NCBI GenBank assembly: GCA_016200325.1 | Contig: JACQEZ010000014.1 | Location: forward strand, 1 to 64,000 | Source of the DNA: Candidatus Manganitrophaceae bacterium | GTDB taxonomy: Bacteria > Nitrospirota > Nitrospiria > SBBL01 > Manganitrophaceae | Reading direction: 5' to 3' | DNA length: 64,000 nt | In this document: piece after piece, positions 23,850-32,555 of the stretch | Layout: each line of letters begins with the position of its first letter | Position numbering within the stretch: the first letter of the stretch is position 1 | The notes under the pieces: generated by a model | Databases searched by the model: none | What the model was told of the DNA's origin: nothing | The model's input: only the letters and a program-made list of their open reading frames with translations | Position numbers and translations under genes: made by a program

Positions 23850-24515
23850 ATGACCCGAATTCTCACGCTCCTTTTTATCCTTTCAACGATCCATCTGGCC
23901 GAAGCGGCCGACTGGAAGGCGATTCCGATCCTTAAATCGGGGATGGTTTCTGCGACGGCGAATCAAAATTTCGGGAGAAGCCCCGGAAAGACGGAGAAGA
24001 CGGCGCTTCCCGATTTTGCCTCTTTCCCGCAGACCCTCCAAGCGGCCAGCACGGATCAGGCGGGAACCGATCGGAGCGCGAAGGCTGAGATGCGTTTAGA
24101 GATGGAGCCCGGCGCAATCCGCTTTAGAGGTAAATTGGAGACGACAGACGCCGTGCCGACCGATTTTCTTGCGCCGGTGGCATCGATGCAAGGCGCAGTC
24201 GTCGTCGATTTGAAGATCATGCTTCCCAATGAAACAGGCACGCTGAAGGGCTCCTTTCGGGTCAGTGCGGAAGGGCCGGCCGCGATCATTCCGCCCGGAG
24301 AGAAAAATCCATTGCCCGATAGCATTATTGCCAAGGTTTTTGTGAATGATGAGCTGGTTCTCAACTCGGTCGACTTTGTTTCCGGGGTCGATAAGGAAAT
24401 TCCGCCGCTTCATCACGGCGATATTGTGACCCTGCTTTTTCAAGAAGATTTCAGCATGTTCTCCTCAGGGCAAGCCGACCTTCTCTCCACCTTCCGTTAC
24501 ACATTCAGTCAGTAA
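23850..24515 (+). CDS. Secreted protein of unknown function
   Basis: 221 aa, starting after GAGGAGTAGTAA. The signal peptide covers residues 1-19 (ends AEAAD). The mature part is beta-rich with no cysteine and no motif that I recognise; GTLKGSFRVSAEGPAAIIPPGE and a C-terminal FRYTFSQ suggest an Ig-like or lipocalin-like barrel. It precedes the FGE-like gene by 63 bp on the same strand and might be co-transcribed with it. Confidence 0.65.
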   Translation: MTRILTLLFILSTIHLAEAADWKAIPILKSGMVSATANQNFGRSPGKTEKTALPDFASFPQTLQAASTDQAGTDRSAKAEMRLEMEPGAIRFRGKLETTDAVPTDFLAPVASMQGAVVVDLKIMLPNETGTLKGSFRVSAEGPAAIIPPGEKNPLPDSIIAKVFVNDELVLNSVDFVSGVDKEIPPLHHGDIVTLLFQEDFSMFSSGQADLLSTFRYTFSQ

Positions 24516-24578: not shown

Positions 24579-25412
24579 ATGGACAAGATCTTTATCAGGG
24601 CTTGGATTGCTTTTGTTGGGTTTCTCTGTCTCGTTGCAATTATCGCGATTCGGGTTACAACGCCGAAAGACGAAGAGGGTGGCGCGCCCGTCCAGACGGT
24701 CAAGTCTTCAGGACCTCCCAAGGAGAACCCGATGGTTCCAGTTCCAGCCGGGGAATTCACAATGGGGAGCGAGGAAGGGGGCTTCGACGAGAAGCCAATA
24801 CACCGGGTTTATGTCGATGCATTTAAGATCAATCAATATGAGGTGACACAGGCGTATTATGCCGAGTTTGTGAAGGCAACCAACCACCGCTCCCCGCTCT
24901 CCCGCTATGTCAAAAACATCAACTATTTTAACGACCAAAACCAGCCAGTCATCTATGTCACCTGGGAGGATGCCGACGAATACTGCCGTTGGCGGGGAGA
25001 ACGGCTTCCGACAGAGGCAGAGTGGGAAAAAGCGGCCAGAGGCGTCGATGGAAGCCCTTGGCCTTGGGGAAAAGACTCGAAGCCGGTATTTGCCAACTTT
25101 CTCGGAGACGGCGACCCGGTCCATTACACATCCGTGGTCGGTTCATTTGAGAATGATAAAAGTTCCTACGGGCTCTATGATGTCGCCGGGAATGTGCGGG
25201 AGTGGGTCGGGGATTGGTATGAAGAGCAGTATTATCGGCATTCGCCCGCTCGAAATCCGAAGGGTCCCGATCAGGGAGAGATGAAATCGATGCGAGGGGG
25301 TTCCTGGAACGATTCTCCTATCTCTGGGACGACGACGGCGCGCATGAAGATGTTTCCGGATTATCGTGATACAACAGTGGGGTTCCGGTGTGCTCAGTCG
25401 ATTAAGGGATAA
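24579..25412 (+). CDS. Formylglycine-generating-enzyme-like (SUMF1/PvdO) protein, membrane-anchored
   Basis: 277 aa. One N-terminal membrane helix (residues 8-26) is followed by a periplasmic domain of FGE-sulfatase fold: VPAGEFTMGSEEG, YEVTQAYYAEFV, YVTWEDADEYCRWRGERLPTEAEWEKAARG, GLYDVAGNVREWVGDWY, MRGGSWND and GFRCA. The two adjacent cysteines used by true FGE to oxidise a substrate cysteine are not both present, so it is more likely a structural or otherwise repurposed member. It lies upstream of the oxidase cluster; an accessory role there is inferred from position only. Confidence 0.78.
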   Translation: MDKIFIRAWIAFVGFLCLVAIIAIRVTTPKDEEGGAPVQTVKSSGPPKENPMVPVPAGEFTMGSEEGGFDEKPIHRVYVDAFKINQYEVTQAYYAEFVKATNHRSPLSRYVKNINYFNDQNQPVIYVTWEDADEYCRWRGERLPTEAEWEKAARGVDGSPWPWGKDSKPVFANFLGDGDPVHYTSVVGSFENDKSSYGLYDVAGNVREWVGDWYEEQYYRHSPARNPKGPDQGEMKSMRGGSWNDSPISGTTTARMKMFPDYRDTTVGFRCAQSIKG

Positions 25413-25427
25413 ACACCTGAAGTACGG

Positions 25428-25547
25428 TTAAAGAAGATTGAGCCAATATAGGACAAGAAAGATTGCGATGAGGGCATTAAAAATCAACCCGACAATCACA
25501 ATCATATTGAAAATCTGGGGATCTTTATGGCGCTCCTTGGTATCCAC
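25428..25547 (-). CDS. Possible small single-helix membrane protein
   Basis: 39 codons from a GTG at 25547 that follows GGAG by 9 bp. The product starts MDTKERHKDPQIFN and continues as one strongly hydrophobic helix (VIVGLIFNALIAIFLVLYW) ending NLL. It is convergent with the FGE-like gene, 15 bp from its stop codon. The composition is protein-like, but no relatives are recognised. Confidence 0.35.
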   Translation of the reverse strand: MDTKERHKDPQIFNMIVIVGLIFNALIAIFLVLYWLNLL

Positions 25548-25675
25548 TCTGTTGGCTCCATCGTTTATATTGAAGCGAAATTACAGTACCACAGGATTTG
25601 GAAAAGAGTCAAGTTTTTTGGTGTAACACTGGAAATTTGAAGCTTATACAGGTAGCGTCCGTTAATGTATGCTTT

Positions 25676-25855
25676 TTATCCTATTATATTGTATTCGCTA
25701 TTACTAAATGTATGAAACATTTTTTCCGCGATATAAAGTAATTCTAAGTCTTTGAGAAGTTCTGGTGAGAGTGCCCCCATTTTAATTTGCTGGAGAGAAT
25801 CTGGTGCTACGATATCGGGTGCTATGACGATATTATAGAGTCGGTGGCACGATGC
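25676..25855 (-). pseudogene. C-terminal gene fragment
   Basis: A 59-codon open stretch (RLYNIVIAPDIVAPDSLQQI, then LSPELLKDLELLYIAEKMF) closed by TAA. It is bounded upstream by a stop and has no initiation codon at its left end; an internal ATG could give 34 aa. It lies in an AT-rich 570-bp gap, probably the tail of a decayed gene. The family is unknown. Confidence 0.3.
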
Positions 25856-25897
25856 CTATACGAGCTAATTTATGAGTTTTGAAGTTTTACTTTTTTC

Positions 25898-25926
25898 TTG
25901 ACAACCTTTATTTTTTGGTATATAGT
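25898..25926 (+). promoter_or_regulatory. Promoter of the respiratory cluster
   Basis: TTGACA (25898-25903), 17 bp, TATAGT (25921-25926). It is nearly ideal for the housekeeping sigma factor and lies 56 bp before the first small gene. Confidence 0.75.
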
Positions 25927-25981
25927 CCCGGTCAATTTTCTTACCAGATTACTGAGAGCCATTATTCCTGAGGGGGTGAAA

Positions 25982-26095
25982 ATGGATCAAAAACAAGGCC
26001 AAACAGTTGGGAAAATTATATTTTTTATTACGATGATTCTTTGTTCTGGCATTATCTGGTATATCTCTGCTCCACCTCCCGGCTTCACGCACTAA
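25982..26095 (+). CDS. Small membrane protein 1 of the oxidase cluster
   Basis: 37 aa from the ATG at 25982, behind GAGGGGGTGAAA. A polar N-terminus (MDQKQGQTVGK) is followed by one helix (IIFFITMILCSGIIWYIS) and a short tail (APPPGFTH). It is the first gene after the strong promoter. Small one-helix subunits such as CydX are normal in bd oxidases; this product is not recognisably CydX but occupies the same kind of niche. Confidence 0.65.
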   Translation: MDQKQGQTVGKIIFFITMILCSGIIWYISAPPPGFTH

Positions 26096-26172
26096 ATTCA
26101 GGTCAAAATGTTAGGCATGCTTTTTTTTCTTAACGAAGTTCCTACCATTATTATAATGATGGAGTTTTAAAA

Positions 26173-26319
26173 ATGGCGAATCAGGACGCAAGTGGAAGCG
26201 GGACAGGAAAAACGATGGTTCTGTATGTCGTATTTTTGGCCGTGGCTGCAGGTTACTACTTTTTTCTCGACTGGGTTATGATGGGGCCGATGCAGAATCT
26301 CCCGTTCCCATATAAATAA
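26173..26319 (+). CDS. Small membrane protein 2 of the oxidase cluster
   Basis: 48 aa from the ATG at 26173, behind GGAG with an 8-nt spacer. A Gly/Ser-rich start (MANQDASGSGTGK) leads into one helix (VLYVVFLAVAAGYYFFLDW) and a tail ending LPFPYK. It lies between small protein 1 and the CydA-like gene on the same strand, so it is probably another accessory subunit. No family is recognised. Confidence 0.65.
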   Translation: MANQDASGSGTGKTMVLYVVFLAVAAGYYFFLDWVMMGPMQNLPFPYK

Positions 26320-26419
26320 ACTTGTTTGTTTTCCTAATGTAAAAGGGTTTGGGTTCGTCTTCCCTGCCCATTTGTTTTAAGTATTCACATCTTAATCATC
26401 TCTTTAAGGAGGTATTAAA

Positions 26420-28342
26420 ATGCGCAGCTTTAACGATCCTAGAAAGGCAAAGATTGGAGCAGTCGTCCTTCTGGGTGTGATAGGCTTGCTCCTCCTCCTC
26501 CCCTTTATCCCAATGCAAGCTGGAGCCGAAGAAGCAAAGCAGGAAAGCGCTCCGGCGGAAAAAAAGGTTGAGAAGGCAAAGGACGTCTATTATAAGGGGC
26601 CTGGTGAATTTGGAATTGTCTCGGGTCCTCCAGCTCCAAAGCTGAAATATCCCGATGACTATGGAACCTATGGAACTTTCCAGAGCCGTACCATCCTCTG
26701 GGTCGCCAATCAGCAGCATCTCTATTTCGGCAGCTTTGTTCTTGCCGTTCCGATGTTCGTGTTCGTCATGGAGTTAGTCGGAATGCTGCAAAAAGACAAG
26801 TTAATGGCTAAAAAATATGATGATATGGCCCACGAGATGATGAAGATCAGTTTGACCGCTTATTCCATTACAGCGGTTCTCGGAGGGATACTCATCTTCA
26901 CCTTCTTGGCTCTTTACCCGGGGTTCTTTGGGTACCTGTCAAGAATCTTTAAGCCGATCATGCACGTCTATGCTCTTCTCTTTATTCTGGAGAGCGGAAC
27001 CTTATATATCTACTACTATGGCTGGGATGGAATGAATGATGGCGGTTTTCTTAAATGGTGCCATCTGTCAATCGCTTTTCTCCTCAACACGATCGGCATC
27101 ATTCTGATGTTCTTCGCCAATTCATGGATCGGATTCATGATGTCTCCGGCCGGGGTTGATGAGCAGGGCCGCTTCTTAGGTGACATTTGGAAATCGGTTC
27201 ATACAGCCCTTTGGCACCCTCTAAATGTCCATCGAATTCTGGGGAATGCTGCATTTGGAGGGGGAGTCGTTGCCGCTTATGCCTCCTATCGTTTCTTGGC
27301 TGCGAAGACTCCGGAAGAGAAAGCTCATTATGACTGGATGAGCTACGTCGCCATGTTTATGGGAATCCTCAACCTAATTCCGCTCCCATTCGCCGGATAT
27401 TGGCTGATGAGAGAAGTCTATGGCTATCGGCAGCAGATGGGAATTACGTTGATGGGCGGTCTCCTGGCCTGGGTGTTCATCATGCAGGCGATGATGATCG
27501 CAATTCTTTTCGTAACCACCAACTACTATCTCTGGCAGGCGATGGGGAGAATGCCCGGCGCAGAGCGGTATTATCGCCTCTTTAAATATATGCTCCTAGT
27601 ATTGATTGTGGCAACCATCTCCTGGTTGACGCCGCATACCCTGGTGATGACCCCCGCTGAGCTTAAAGCGATGGGAGGGGCGCAGCATCCAATCGTTGGG
27701 AACTACGGCGTGATGTCGGCAAAAAATACCGCCGTCAATATCATGATCACGACGACGGTGTTCTGTTTCTGTATCTATCAGCGGTGCAACAAAGTACCTA
27801 CTGTGAAGTGGGCCGCGGCAGGGAATGCATTCCTTGGTGCGCTCTTTACTGGCGCGGCAGTGAATATTGTCTTTTTGGGAATCTATGGCTACTTCATCCC
27901 GGCCAACGTCCGTATCGGCCTTTCCGTTCCTCAGGTCTGCTCGACGCTGACCACTCTTTTTGTCGGAGTCACGATTAATACGATGATGATGAAGGGGGCA
28001 AGACAGCTTGGAGAGGTCCGATGGGGACAGATGTCGCCAAGAGGTTCCTATGCGCTCTTCTGCTTGGCCGTGTCGTTTACATGGACGATGGCGGTGATGG
28101 GATATCTTCGCTCTTCCGTCCGTCTTCATTGGCATGTGAATGAGATTCTTCGGGACAATTCTCCCTGGGCATTCACCAATCCAGTCGGTTATGCGGGCAA
28201 CATGAACTCAATGAATGTGCTTCTCTTCTGGACGATGCTGCTCTTCGTCTTCTGGCTGGGTGCTCTTTCAGCGAAAAAAGCGCCTGTCAGGGAAGAAGAA
28301 GTGGGCGTCGGAAAAGCGACACTTCCGGCGGGGAGCCATTAA
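26420..28342 (+). CDS. Large cytochrome bd oxidase-like membrane protein (CydA-like)
   Basis: 640 aa, starting after AAGGAGG. A signal-like helix is followed by ~14 membrane segments. CydA landmarks are present in order: H100 in QQHLYFGSF (equivalent to the haem b595 His), E191 in FILESGTLYIYYYGWDG, H271 in NVHRILGNAAFGG (haem b558) and W328-x3-E332 in GYWLMREVYGYRQQ, where normal CydA has GRQPW. The second half (350-640) adds about seven helices not found in CydA, and no cydB follows. Such long bd-like proteins are known in Nitrospira relatives. It probably reduces O2 or moves electrons with the downstream cytochromes c as partners instead of quinol; this is inference. Confidence 0.8.
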   Translation: MRSFNDPRKAKIGAVVLLGVIGLLLLLPFIPMQAGAEEAKQESAPAEKKVEKAKDVYYKGPGEFGIVSGPPAPKLKYPDDYGTYGTFQSRTILWVANQQHLYFGSFVLAVPMFVFVMELVGMLQKDKLMAKKYDDMAHEMMKISLTAYSITAVLGGILIFTFLALYPGFFGYLSRIFKPIMHVYALLFILESGTLYIYYYGWDGMNDGGFLKWCHLSIAFLLNTIGIILMFFANSWIGFMMSPAGVDEQGRFLGDIWKSVHTALWHPLNVHRILGNAAFGGGVVAAYASYRFLAAKTPEEKAHYDWMSYVAMFMGILNLIPLPFAGYWLMREVYGYRQQMGITLMGGLLAWVFIMQAMMIAILFVTTNYYLWQAMGRMPGAERYYRLFKYMLLVLIVATISWLTPHTLVMTPAELKAMGGAQHPIVGNYGVMSAKNTAVNIMITTTVFCFCIYQRCNKVPTVKWAAAGNAFLGALFTGAAVNIVFLGIYGYFIPANVRIGLSVPQVCSTLTTLFVGVTINTMMMKGARQLGEVRWGQMSPRGSYALFCLAVSFTWTMAVMGYLRSSVRLHWHVNEILRDNSPWAFTNPVGYAGNMNSMNVLLFWTMLLFVFWLGALSAKKAPVREEEVGVGKATLPAGSH

Positions 28343-28404
28343 ATTCTCTTAATGGGGAGAGAACCGCAAGGTTCCTCCCCACTATCGGGGGGTAAGAGAA
28401 GAGG

Positions 28405-29634
28405 ATGAATAAGGCAAAAGATAGTGGTGGGACGATCTTTAGAGTAGCACTTTGGTATATCTTCATCTTATCTATTTTTGCGGGAATTTCTGTCTGGTTG
28501 CCCCAGATTCGTGGAGACGCTCCCGAGGCGGCGCAAGCAGTCGACCTCGCCTCCGTCACACCTGAGAAATTGGCGGAAATGGGGAAAATGATTGTGTTCG
28601 GAACGGCGAACCCCAGTTTTGGAGGAGGAGGTGTCCCGATTGGAAAAGGGCAATGTCCTCTCTGTCATATGTTCTTCCAAGAACAGAAGGCGGATCGCTG
28701 CCCGGTTCTGATCGGTGAAGAGGGACGCTCCAACAATCGGGTAAAAGAAGATCGGTACAAAACATTCGCTTCCCGACTTGCGAATGGCGAGCCGAACAGC
28801 GGGGTTAAGCCGCACGCCACGAAAGGCGGCGAGTACCTTGTCGAATCTGAATACTGCCCGAACTGCTACGTGGTGGAAGGCTTTGGTATCAAAGGGACGA
28901 ACGATACAGAGAGCCCGATGCCGATCATCAACAAGCCGCCCATTCAGCTGACCGATACTGAAATTGTCTCCGTGGTGTCATTTCTTCAGACGAAAGACGA
29001 CGGCGATTTCACCAAATGGACTGCAAAGGCCTCTTGGGAGTCTTATTGGGGTAAGCCGTTGAAGGCGGACACAGGTTCCAAAGAGGGAGAAGCCAAAGCA
29101 GCCCCGGCCGGTCCTCCGGTCGCTCTCGACAGTGATACTCCGGAGCAGATTGTCCAGAAGATGACCTGCTTCGCCTGCCATAAGATTCCGGGGATTTCGA
29201 TTGCCAAGACCGGTATGATTGGACCCTTATTGATCGAGAAGACCAATGCTCCCAACCGCATCAAATCGCCCGAATATCAGAAGGCGGTGAAAGAGGGGAA
29301 GGCGCACGCGACAACCCCGAGAGAATATGTGATCGAGTCCATCATGAATCCGGGAGCCTTTATCGTCCCCGGATTTGCGGATGACATGATCAAAGACTTC
29401 TCTCATAAATTTACCGTCGCGGGGCTCGACAAGTTGGTGGATTACCTTCTTCAGCAGGATGCTGCTGAAGCGATTAAGCAAAATCTTGATCGGCTGCCAA
29501 ATGAGAAAGAGGGCCCCTTGAAAAAGGCGGATCTCTCCTCGCCCGAGCAAAAAGCAATCGCTAATGCGACGACACCCAAATCGGATGGGAGGCACGCCTC
29601 CATCTCCGGAGAAAATGCCGGAGGAAAACTTTAA
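28405..29634 (+). CDS. Membrane-anchored di-haem cytochrome c with a degenerate third site
   Basis: 409 aa. One N-terminal helix (12-32) anchors two cytochrome-c domains. Haem motifs are CPLCH (84-88) and CFACH (255-259). A third site, CPNCY (151-155), lacks the axial His, so it is either non-haem or a degenerate attachment site. A Pro/Met segment (PMPIINKPPI) before the C-terminal helix of domain 1 offers Met ligands. The C-terminal 50 residues are charged. It follows the CydA-like gene by 62 bp. It likely hands electrons to or from the oxidase at the outer face of the inner membrane. Confidence 0.82.
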   Translation: MNKAKDSGGTIFRVALWYIFILSIFAGISVWLPQIRGDAPEAAQAVDLASVTPEKLAEMGKMIVFGTANPSFGGGGVPIGKGQCPLCHMFFQEQKADRCPVLIGEEGRSNNRVKEDRYKTFASRLANGEPNSGVKPHATKGGEYLVESEYCPNCYVVEGFGIKGTNDTESPMPIINKPPIQLTDTEIVSVVSFLQTKDDGDFTKWTAKASWESYWGKPLKADTGSKEGEAKAAPAGPPVALDSDTPEQIVQKMTCFACHKIPGISIAKTGMIGPLLIEKTNAPNRIKSPEYQKAVKEGKAHATTPREYVIESIMNPGAFIVPGFADDMIKDFSHKFTVAGLDKLVDYLLQQDAAEAIKQNLDRLPNEKEGPLKKADLSSPEQKAIANATTPKSDGRHASISGENAGGKL

Positions 29635-29667
29635 ATGAAAAGTGTGAGGAAGGGAGGAGCGCATTTT

Positions 29668-30675
29668 ATGTTAAAGCAGAGAGGTACTTCTCTTATTTTG
29701 CAAGTCCTCTTCACCGTCCTGGCCCTGCCGATGCTTGCTTGGGCCAGCGGAGGGGGAGTCGAGTGGATGGATGCGGGGAAGTTCGCGCTCATCATTGAGA
29801 TGGGACTCGGCATTGGGGTTATTTTTCTTGCTTGGCTGATTAAGGACAAGCTCGGGTTTCCATTCCCAAAGTTGCTTCAGGCCCCCTTAATCTGGATAAC
29901 AGCCTTTATTATTTTCCGGGTGATTTTACAGCCGCCGATTCCGTTCTCCTTGCTCGCGATTTATATGACGGTTGTGACAATTGGTGTTCTTCTCTACATT
30001 ACTATCACTCAGCCCAATTGGGAAGAGTTCAGCAAGCCGATTGTATTCATGCTGCAGGAGGATAGCGGAAAGGCAAAAATGTCCCGCTATATTACTTTTG
30101 CGGCCGTTCCGGTGCTATTGGCCTACGGCACTTACAATAAAATGCTCCCAAAGTTTGAGGAGCCTGTCGAGCTGAGAACTGTTCATCCAGCTCCCCCAGC
30201 GAGCATCAACGTTCATGATAAGATTCTCAATCTTCAGACGGCTGAAAACCCATATCGAATTGATGATTCGGGAAAGTATCTGAAGGTCGGCTTGGAAAGC
30301 GCCTATTTTGGAAAAAATCCATGGGCGACTGATGCTCCCAAATATCTTCAGAATGTAAGAGATGGGGGTATCGTCTTCTTTGGTACAGCGGGATGTTTCT
30401 TCTGCCATGGCGACAACCTTGACGGCAAAGGACCTTTCGCGTTCGCCTTCAATCCGATTCCAGCAAATTTCGCCGATCCTGGAACGATTTCGCAGCTTCA
30501 GGAAACGTTCGTATTCTGGCGTGTATCTAAGGGAGGACCTGGGCTATCGAGAGAAGGATTTCCATGGGCATCAGCCATGCCGCCCTGGGAAAAGCATCTG
30601 ACCACAAATGAAATTTGGCGGGTCATTCTCTTTGAGTATTGGCACACTGGTTTCTTCCCGAGAACATGGGATTAA
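29668..30675 (+). CDS. Multi-helix membrane cytochrome c (mono-haem)
   Basis: 335 aa from the ATG at 29668, which follows GGGAGGAG; the ATG at 29635 touching the previous stop codon has no site of its own. A signal or first helix, then four more hydrophobic segments (40-58, 74-90, 95-113, 142-156), and a periplasmic C-terminal domain with CFFCH (243-247), SAMPPWEKHL (likely Met ligand) and a final aromatic segment. It is the third large gene of the cluster and probably an intramembrane docking or electron-entry subunit. I do not know a characterised homologue. Confidence 0.78.
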   Translation: MLKQRGTSLILQVLFTVLALPMLAWASGGGVEWMDAGKFALIIEMGLGIGVIFLAWLIKDKLGFPFPKLLQAPLIWITAFIIFRVILQPPIPFSLLAIYMTVVTIGVLLYITITQPNWEEFSKPIVFMLQEDSGKAKMSRYITFAAVPVLLAYGTYNKMLPKFEEPVELRTVHPAPPASINVHDKILNLQTAENPYRIDDSGKYLKVGLESAYFGKNPWATDAPKYLQNVRDGGIVFFGTAGCFFCHGDNLDGKGPFAFAFNPIPANFADPGTISQLQETFVFWRVSKGGPGLSREGFPWASAMPPWEKHLTTNEIWRVILFEYWHTGFFPRTWD

Positions 30676-30737
30676 GGCTAAATTGAACTGAGAAACGGGT
30701 TATTCCCAATCGTTCTAATTAAGGGGGACTGTGAAAA

Positions 30738-32489
30738 ATGAGGGAACAACTTATTAATGCAGATAAAAGGCAGCTGATGCTTAAAGGGCTCGCTGCTGGC
30801 GCACTCGCGCTATTGCTCTCGTCGGGGGGGATGTTCTGGACCGGCAAGGTATCGGCTGAAGCGTTAGAACCAAAGCCTGGAAAGTATCGACCGACGCCTC
30901 CGAGCAAAGAAGATGTTGAAGCAGGCAAAGCGGTCTATTTTAGAAAGTGTGTTTGGTGTCACGGTCCGGATGGCGCTGGGGATGGACCATCGGCCATCCG
31001 CCTCCATCCGAAACCGCGTAATTTCAACCAAGGGACCTTTAAGATTCGGCACACTGCCAGTGGCGAACTGCCGACCGATGAGGATCTCTTTAATACGGTA
31101 ACACACGGACTCCCTGGGTCCGTGATGCCGCCTTGGGGCGAGATTCTCTCAGACAAGGAGAGAAGGCAAGTCATCTCATTCGTTAAAACTGAGCTTGTGA
31201 AGGACCGGAAGTTTGACGATAAAGATGAAGCTTTAAATGTAATTGATTACGGTAAGCAGATTGCTTCCTCGGAAGATAGTATCAAGAAAGGCCGAGAAAT
31301 TTTTATGACCAAGGCAAAATGTGTGGAATGCCATGGCGTCGAGGGAAGAGGGAATGGAAACTTAACCCAACGCGACGACTGGGGTTTTCCGATCTTTCCG
31401 GCCGACCTTCAGAAACCCTGGAATCTTAGAGGAAATAGAAGAGATCCATATAATCCAAAGAATATCTTCCGTGAGATTTCCACAGGCTTGAATGGAACGC
31501 CGATGCCTTCTTTTGCCGATGAATTGACCCCGGAAGAGCGATGGCATGTGGCTAACTTCGTGATGTCTCTCTCTCAAAAATTTCCGATCGATCCCTCGAC
31601 CAATAAGCCAGCGATTCAGTTCGTCATTAAATCGAAGTTCCTTAAGGAAGGGGAGCTTCCGAGCGATCCAAACGATAAGCGGTGGGAGCCGCTTCCTCCC
31701 CAGATTATCGGGATGGCGAGCCAAATCATCCAGCCGCCTCGGCACTTTTTGAGAACGGTCGATGATCTTCGAGTTAGATCGCTCTTCAATAATAAGGAAG
31801 TTGCGATCCTCGTTGAGTGGGACGATCGGACGGAGAGTCATCGCGATGAGAATAAACAAGCGGTTTATGATATGACGGCGATTTCATCCGCCTCATTCCC
31901 CGCGATTAATACAACGGAATATACCCATGAGAATGATACGGAAGCGGGACCACTAAAGGATGTCAATCCCCCGTCCAAAGGGGTTTATAATGACGGCGTT
32001 GCCATCCAGTTCGCTGAGAAGTGGCAGGAGCTACCCTCTCCTGAGAAGCCTTATTTTATTCATGGTGACGTTAAAAGAGGTGTCGATCTTTGGAAGTGGG
32101 AATCCGACGGTTCCACAAAAGAGTACGAAGGCCATGGAATTGATAGTGTTAAGGTCAAGGAAGGGAATAAGAATGTCCGTGTCGATGGGGCGAAGTGGAA
32201 CAATGGCCGGTGGCAGTTGATCTTGAAGCGGTCTCTCACGACTGCAGACAAGGAACATGATGCCCAGCTTGAGATGGGGAAGAATATTCCGATGGTCTTC
32301 TTTGCCTGGGATGGCGATGCCGGTGAATTCGCTGGTAAGATGGCGCTTTCGACCTATTACTACCTGATGCTGGAACCTCCAGTTCCAGGTAAGGTCTATG
32401 TCATTCCTCCAATCATCGCGGGTATCGTCGTGATCCTTGAAGGATGTGTTTTGTATAGTGCCCGTAAGAGAAAAAGAGAGAACGCCTAA
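30738..32489 (+). CDS. Di-haem cytochrome c fused to an ethylbenzene-dehydrogenase gamma-like (NxrC-like) domain
   Basis: 583 aa, starting after AAGGGGGACTGTGAAAA. The signal is in residues 15-40. Haem motifs are CVWCH (71-75) and CVECH (195-199), each followed by a MPPW or MPSF Met-ligand segment. Residues ~305-550 are the haem-b-binding beta-sandwich domain of the ethylbenzene dehydrogenase/DMSO reductase gamma family (VAILVEWDD, DGVAIQF, NGRWQLILKRSL, VFFAWDGDAGE). One C-terminal helix (553-575) ends in RKRKREN. The related NxrC of Nitrospira carries electrons from nitrite oxidoreductase. No alpha or beta subunit is encoded here, so in this cluster it may link a periplasmic donor to the oxidase. 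Confidence 0.85.
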   Translation: MREQLINADKRQLMLKGLAAGALALLLSSGGMFWTGKVSAEALEPKPGKYRPTPPSKEDVEAGKAVYFRKCVWCHGPDGAGDGPSAIRLHPKPRNFNQGTFKIRHTASGELPTDEDLFNTVTHGLPGSVMPPWGEILSDKERRQVISFVKTELVKDRKFDDKDEALNVIDYGKQIASSEDSIKKGREIFMTKAKCVECHGVEGRGNGNLTQRDDWGFPIFPADLQKPWNLRGNRRDPYNPKNIFREISTGLNGTPMPSFADELTPEERWHVANFVMSLSQKFPIDPSTNKPAIQFVIKSKFLKEGELPSDPNDKRWEPLPPQIIGMASQIIQPPRHFLRTVDDLRVRSLFNNKEVAILVEWDDRTESHRDENKQAVYDMTAISSASFPAINTTEYTHENDTEAGPLKDVNPPSKGVYNDGVAIQFAEKWQELPSPEKPYFIHGDVKRGVDLWKWESDGSTKEYEGHGIDSVKVKEGNKNVRVDGAKWNNGRWQLILKRSLTTADKEHDAQLEMGKNIPMVFFAWDGDAGEFAGKMALSTYYYLMLEPPVPGKVYVIPPIIAGIVVILEGCVLYSARKRKRENA

Positions 32490-32510
32490 AGGGCATTTCC
32501 CGTTGAAATA

Positions 32511-32555
32511 AAAAGGGGTGGATACAGCAATCTGTATCCACCCCTTTTCTTTATT
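32511..32555 (+). terminator. Strong terminator of the respiratory cluster
   Basis: A 17-bp perfect stem (AAAAGGGGTGGATACAG at 32511-32527 with 32532-32548) with a CAAT loop and a T-rich tail, 21 bp after the last stop codon. Confidence 0.93.

Follow-up and report, generated by a model that had tools for sequence, protein, structure and literature searches.

A cytochrome-c-linked bd-like gene cluster of Manganitrophaceae with three conserved single-helix microproteins as probable accessory subunits

In Nitrospira moscoviensis, Nitrospina gracilis and Kuenenia, the cluster known as bd-like_3/alt_NxrC_2 combines a bd-like protein with two cytochromes c and an alternative NxrC, and has no CydB (PMC6606698; PMC3578206). 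The bd-like_3 cluster is widely conserved, ranks among the 40 gene sets with the strongest transcription in N. moscoviensis, and has been proposed to serve reverse electron flow (PMC6606698). For the bd-like proteins of Nitrospina and Kuenenia, 14 helices and the lack of a quinol site have been described (PMC3578206). The OR-N family and CydAA' bd-like oxidases likewise comprise a CydA homologue without CydB, a putative cytochrome c donor and several paralogs per Nitrospirota genome (PMC10839748; PMC12342949). In Candidatus Manganitrophus, the cluster TO_1 contains a bd-like protein and a periplasmic cytochrome b component and occurs in most Troglogloeales and in other Nitrospirota; electron bifurcation was proposed for another cluster, TO_2 (PMC9040806). 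Here we analyze a related locus at positions 24579-32555 of a 64,000-nucleotide stretch (the window) of contig JACQEZ010000014.1 (GCA_016200325.1) from a Candidatus Manganitrophaceae bacterium. The 4.2-Mb assembly has a completeness of 99.4% and the genome is placed in the same class as the Nitrospirales.

The locus carries a bd-like gene, two cytochrome c genes and an alternative NxrC gene in synteny, and its 583-amino acid (aa) protein has the same architecture as alt_NxrC_2 of N. moscoviensis (signal peptide, one transmembrane helix, dihaem, 63.8 kDa; Table 2 in PMC6606698). The cluster is not of a new kind, having already been described for Nitrospira, Nitrospina and anammox bacteria. The large-gene set noted in an earlier sequence-only reading matches the published bd-like_3/alt_NxrC_2 (PMC6606698; PMC3578206) and is probably the TO_1 of manganese oxidizers, to which it was likened by description only (PMC9040806). 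With canonical cytochrome bd (CydABX/CydH) it shares the CydA fold, the equivalents of H19 and H186, and small single-helix proteins beside the oxidase gene, similar in size to the 37-aa CydX (PMC4325964). It differs in that the genome has no CydB, that extra helices appear in place of the quinol loop, and that the partners are c-type cytochromes. The small candidate subunits also differ: there are three of them, their genes precede that of the CydA-like protein, and their sequences are related to no Pfam family. Neither they nor a neighbouring protein resembling formylglycine-generating enzyme (FGE) are mentioned in the main text of the bd-like_3 papers (PMC6606698; PMC3578206), and no description of them was found in the open-access literature searched. 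As far as that literature shows, the three microproteins are undescribed, as had been supposed for two of them, and they are the new part of the locus.

Two of these proteins are encoded at the head of the operon. The first gene, sp37 (25982..26095, plus strand), and the following sp48 (26173..26319, plus strand) encode single-helix proteins of 37 and 48 aa. Profile searches of 58 related genomes identified one copy per genome of sp37 in 53 and of sp48 in 52 of them, separated by an E-value gap of several orders of magnitude from the next match and located either next to this bd-like gene or on a fragment of a contig. Genomes without a match either lacked the orthologue or had it interrupted by the end of a contig (G017, G020, G040; G003, G027, G048). 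A local search upstream of the orthologous bd-like loci recovered sp37 at 43 of 46 loci and sp48 at 44 of 46. The exceptions comprise a genome in which sp37 was retrieved by the genome search instead (G028), one truncated locus, and L089, a second copy of the bd-like gene that lacks the cluster. Neither sp37 nor sp48 lies upstream of any of the 29 paralogous bd-like genes, and only two of these genes have any small membrane open reading frame (ORF) with a ribosome site within 600 nucleotides.

The ORFs also show the signature of selected protein-coding genes. Within the genus, the nonsynonymous divergence (dN) of sp37 and sp48 is several-fold lower than the synonymous divergence (dS), with a dN/dS of about 0.13-0.26 for sp37; the ORFs are free of indels and the spacers are less conserved than the ORFs. 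Both genes are under purifying selection. The C-terminal part of sp48 carries a motif of the form DWxxM..QNLPFPY / DHFLM.QGLDFWY. The C-terminus of sp37 often ends in histidine (PPGFTH, KPAH; alignment A6), but reads CPC in Nitrospira and is not conserved across all lineages; a role of this histidine as a ligand or contact is possible.

The sequence-only reading had counted two small proteins, but there are three. The third, sp39, which had been overlooked, is a single-helix protein of 39 aa with a GTG start, encoded on the minus strand (25428..25547, read from 25547 to 25428) and divergent from sp37. Homologues occur at nearly every locus, on the strand opposite to the cluster in Nitrospiria, and 53 of the 58 related genomes contain one copy. 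Between the window's genome and other members of the genus, dN is 0.01-0.03 and dS 0.8-1.4 (dN/dS about 0.01-0.05), making sp39 the most constrained of the three.

The trio extends beyond the class. In a second Nitrospirota class, in which the bd-like protein is 47-49% identical, small ORFs of the sp39, sp37 and sp48 kinds precede the bd-like gene, and in three loci sp39 and the bd-like gene are on the same strand. Five Nitrospinota genomes have the trio in the Nitrospiria arrangement (sp39 reversed, then sp37 and sp48). Nitrospinota bd-like proteins nest within the Nitrospiria clade in a FastTree tree, considered without its support values, which suggests transfer. A genome labelled Nitrospinota (G085, JACZVJ010000019.1; locus L214) has a cluster, FGE-like genes, a trio and a tree position that are all Nitrospirales-like, and its label is probably a misassignment. 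The possibility that small ORFs had moved between the bd-like and cytochrome genes in Nitrospinota was rejected, as the reading frame concerned encodes a multi-helix extension at the N-terminus of the cytochrome. Also rejected was the idea that sp37 and sp48 are general companions of bd-like genes, given their absence from the 29 paralogs and from the anammox and proteobacterial genomes tested.

No known family accounts for the small proteins. Pfam and NCBIfam scans of the three proteins of the window gave nothing above cut-off, nor did Pfam scans of the alignments A5, A2 and A6, and neither database placed sp37, sp48 or sp39 in the CydX or CydH families. A homologue of solved structure was rejected, since the best PDB matches (E 0.18 and 1.1) were unconvincing.

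The large protein next to which these genes are found (26420..28342, plus strand, 640 aa) matches PF01654 (E 6e-18) in its N-terminal half only; the match ends at residue 336, which corresponds to profile position 240 of 418. The sequence-only reading had described a CydA-like protein with a second multi-helix half. A structure was predicted (mean pLDDT, the predicted local distance difference test score, 83), and the model aligned with chain 7ose_A over residues 82-621 (VIA Z 35.0, 350 residues aligned, root-mean-square deviation 3.5). Ten CydA chains gave VIA Z values of 31-35, followed by NrfD-type subunits of alternative complex III with Z 20-23. Because the predicted model aligns with CydA chains over this whole range, we consider the protein a single complete CydA fold with an insert. 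The CydA-type character given in the earlier description stands; an unrelated second half is not supported.

The extra helices lie at about residues 346-490, where the model places membrane-length segments at 350-375, 381-403, 433-455 and 465-490. A canonical quinol-binding loop was not found, since the PF01654 match stops at residue 336 and these membrane-length helices follow in the model; the helices between 350 and 490 appear to occupy the place of the loop. The Nitrospina bd-like protein is likewise reported without a quinol site (PMC3578206). A fold search with the insert alone returned nothing more specific than generic helical bundles (best VIA Z 9.5; Foldseek E > 0.4), and its assignment to a separate known domain was rejected; this lack of a clear fold match is no proof of a new fold.

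Some of the haem-ligand positions could be assigned. H100 and H271 correspond to E. coli H19 and H186, the ligands of haem d and haem b558, respectively (PMC8585947), and both are invariant in 95 of 95 homologues. E. coli E99 aligns adjacent to the invariant Y184. Further invariant residues are H215, H406, H572, E414, R568, W571 and D579, with H423 nearly so. If the CydA topology holds, H406, E414, H423 and H572 could face the periplasm and form a docking or metal site. In agreement with the earlier claim that CydB is missing, PF02322 had no match anywhere in the window's 99.4%-complete genome, so no cydB partner is encoded elsewhere in it, whereas 10 of 14 control genomes were positive.

Downstream follow a 409-aa cytochrome c with two CxxCH motifs (CPLCH, CFACH) and a CPNCY site (28405..29634), a 346-aa membrane protein with a C-terminal monohaem cytochrome c domain (CFFCH; 29635..30675), recognized by domain scan and synteny, and the 583-aa alternative NxrC (30738..32489), in which domain scans identified a dihaem cytochrome c, an ethylbenzene-dehydrogenase-gamma (EB_dh) domain and a C-terminal membrane helix; all are on the plus strand. 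Synteny of this order extends throughout the class, and diverged versions of it occur in Nitrospinota, anammox bacteria and some proteobacterial genomes. There is good evidence, from natural fusions to the bd-like protein, that the 409-aa cytochrome would be its direct redox partner: in an 848-aa Scalindua homologue, the C-terminal cytochrome c domain is homologous to it (E 3e-32 to homologues), and so is that of a 799-aa paralog in the window's genome (contig C15; E 1e-15 to homologues). These fusions and the loss of the quinol loop support the proposed coupling to cytochrome c. The extra CPNCY site is CxxC[Y/F] in most relatives and a cysteine-free replacement in a minority.

Several related loci were noted alongside these partners. 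The 799-aa bd-like/monohaem cytochrome c fusion (L092 in G000:C15, 7791-10187, minus strand) lies beside homologues of the 346-aa and 583-aa proteins and may represent another, related complex of this genome. Locus L091 (G000:C14, about 186594-189255) has tandem short CydA-like genes of 422 and 445 aa, and an NxrB/ferredoxin-like ORF lies a few kb away, at 183565; the two genes are similar to the reported CydAA' pair that follows alternative complex III. Scalindua rubra (G067) has nine bd-like matching stretches, including the 848-aa fusion with a dihaem cytochrome (L218). In L061, L209 and similar loci of Nitrospira and Nitrospinota, the first cytochrome carries an N-terminal multi-helix extension that is absent in the window; conversely, additional N-terminal helices are present in the window's 346-aa protein but not in its Nitrospira and Nitrospinota counterparts. 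These differences between neighbouring cytochromes look like a domain rearrangement.

On balance, we consider it probable that the locus encodes a cytochrome-c-linked bd-like complex with three unrecognized single-helix accessory subunits, sp37, sp48 and sp39. That the small proteins physically belong to the complex is suggested by their linkage and conservation. The complex would be of the bd-like_3 type, in which a CydA-fold membrane protein without CydB takes up or donates electrons at its periplasmic face via c-type haems. The 583-aa protein, with haem b in its EB_dh domain and two haems c, and the 346-aa cytochrome may pass electrons to the dihaem 409-aa cytochrome, which may dock on the bd-like protein at the position that the quinol loop occupies in canonical enzymes. 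The three small proteins, including the divergently encoded sp39, could play a part like that of CydX or CydH, by capping lateral helices, stabilizing haem sites or assisting assembly. We also lean toward viewing them as a three-protein module of obligate single-helix subunits of a cytochrome-c-linked bd-like complex in Nitrospirota and Nitrospinota, an independently arisen counterpart of CydX/CydH.

Several observations weigh against this interpretation. A profile alignment of the C-terminal part of the bd-like protein did not place equivalents of M393 (haem b558) and E445 (haem b595); a placement by eye of E445 at the invariant S565 and of W451 at W571 was not relied on. The Nitrospinota trio is not linked to the bd-like gene and lies at a separate locus after a DUF420 gene, which fits a role in assembly or a wider respiratory role as well. 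Finally, the tested anammox and proteobacterial genomes that carry a bd-like gene gave no convincing match to the trio, which is therefore dispensable for some bd-like complexes.

The candidate electron acceptors of the complex are O2 and, in reverse electron transport, quinone. Electron bifurcation, in which one donor reduces two acceptors of different potential, was an alternative in the sequence-only reading; the published proposal concerns TO_2 and not this cluster type (PMC9040806). In one scheme, proposed for bd-like_3 of Nitrospira and Nitrospina (PMC3578206; PMC6606698), the complex is an oxidoreductase between periplasmic cytochrome and quinone that acts in reverse electron transport, similar to alternative complex III. 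Anammox genomes contain this bd-like gene set as well, which argues for a role beyond O2, and both the replaced quinol-loop region and the unrecovered E445 and M393 equivalents fit this scheme, but no quinone site was identified and H100, the equivalent of the haem-d ligand, is invariant. We give this scheme something close to an even chance, tentatively and on the lower side. In the other scheme, the complex is a cytochrome-c-coupled terminal oxidase of the OR-N type. It draws on the CydA fold, the c-type cytochrome fusions, the lack of a canonical CydAB in the genome and the treatment of TO_1-type clusters as terminal oxidases in manganese oxidizers (PMC9040806). The conserved H19 and H186 equivalents argue for O2, as does the OR-N literature (PMC10839748; PMC12342949), in which such bd-like proteins are treated as putative cytochrome-c-oxidizing O2 reductases (PMC10839748), a treatment that also speaks against the quinone scheme. 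The occurrence of the gene set in anammox bacteria and the unrecovered M393 and E445 equivalents speak against this putative oxidase, and we regard this scheme, too, as possible but not quite an even prospect.

It is rather unlikely that the small proteins serve in assembly or maturation, through haem insertion, cytochrome c attachment or membrane insertion for the bd-like complex or for several respiratory complexes, instead of being stoichiometric subunits. The unlinked trio of Nitrospinota, found after the DUF420 gene and near genes for an HmuY-domain protein and a Cys-rich Fe-S protein, would suit such a function, as would the separate transcription of sp39 in Nitrospiria. On the other hand, in Nitrospirota the small genes are single-copy and strictly linked to one of several bd-like paralogs, and sp37 and sp48 are operonic at the head of the structural genes. 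The lack of a Pfam, NCBIfam or PDB family would fit small ORFs that arose by chance or encode leader peptides and have no protein function. This is very improbable, since they are conserved across two phyla, one per genome, with dN far below dS, no indels and a wide E-value gap.

The remaining features of the locus frame the operon. A sigma-70-type promoter, TTGACA-N17-TATAGT, lies ahead of sp37 (25898..25926, plus strand) and is identical in all five genus members tested; its counterpart in a second family (L052) is TTGACA-N17-TAGAAT. In the 250 nucleotides upstream of the sp37 ORF, at least 11 of 12 consensus matches arose in 0.2% of base shuffles. The strongest terminator in the region, an intrinsic one with a 17-pair stem followed by CTTTATT, lies at 32511..32548 (plus strand). 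The promoter, the 17-bp terminator, the gene set and the 37-aa and 48-aa ORFs were all found where the sequence-only reading had placed them, and the conservation of the two ORFs in relatives and upstream of homologous bd-like genes establishes them as real.

Upstream, a gene conserved in this position across the class (24579..25412, plus strand) encodes a degenerate FGE/SUMF1-domain protein with an N-terminal membrane helix (PF03781, E 5e-58). In FGE, the catalytic cysteine pair is expected after GGS(Y/F). The protein (RGGSWNDSPISG...RMKMFP) lacks the FGE cysteines, as do all aligned homologues shown, and an active formylglycine enzyme was therefore rejected. The absence of these cysteines makes a structural or binding role likely, as judged from the alignments. 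The neighbour had been put forward as an undescribed FGE-like protein; it is indeed a conserved part of the locus without a description in the open-access literature, but the likeness does not extend to the catalytic cysteines. Many relatives have two FGE-like paralogs at the locus (L054, L061-L090), and the window has only one. Just upstream of the FGE-like gene, window positions 23850-24515 encode a secreted 221-aa protein for which neither Pfam nor NCBIfam gave a match.

Bd-like complexes hold a central place in the respiration of nitrite-, comammox- and manganese-oxidizing Nitrospirota, and the direction of electron flow through them is debated. The window's genome has the cluster but gave no NxrB-level match; nitrite oxidation is therefore not a requirement for the cluster, and the presence of the cluster in genomes without detectable nitrite oxidoreductase (NXR) weakens the idea of a role in nitrite oxidation only. 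The proteins sp37, sp48 and sp39 are likely to be overlooked by standard annotation and proteomics. As three conserved, unannotated membrane microproteins they offer handles on these complexes, and finding them in a native complex would define what it is made of.

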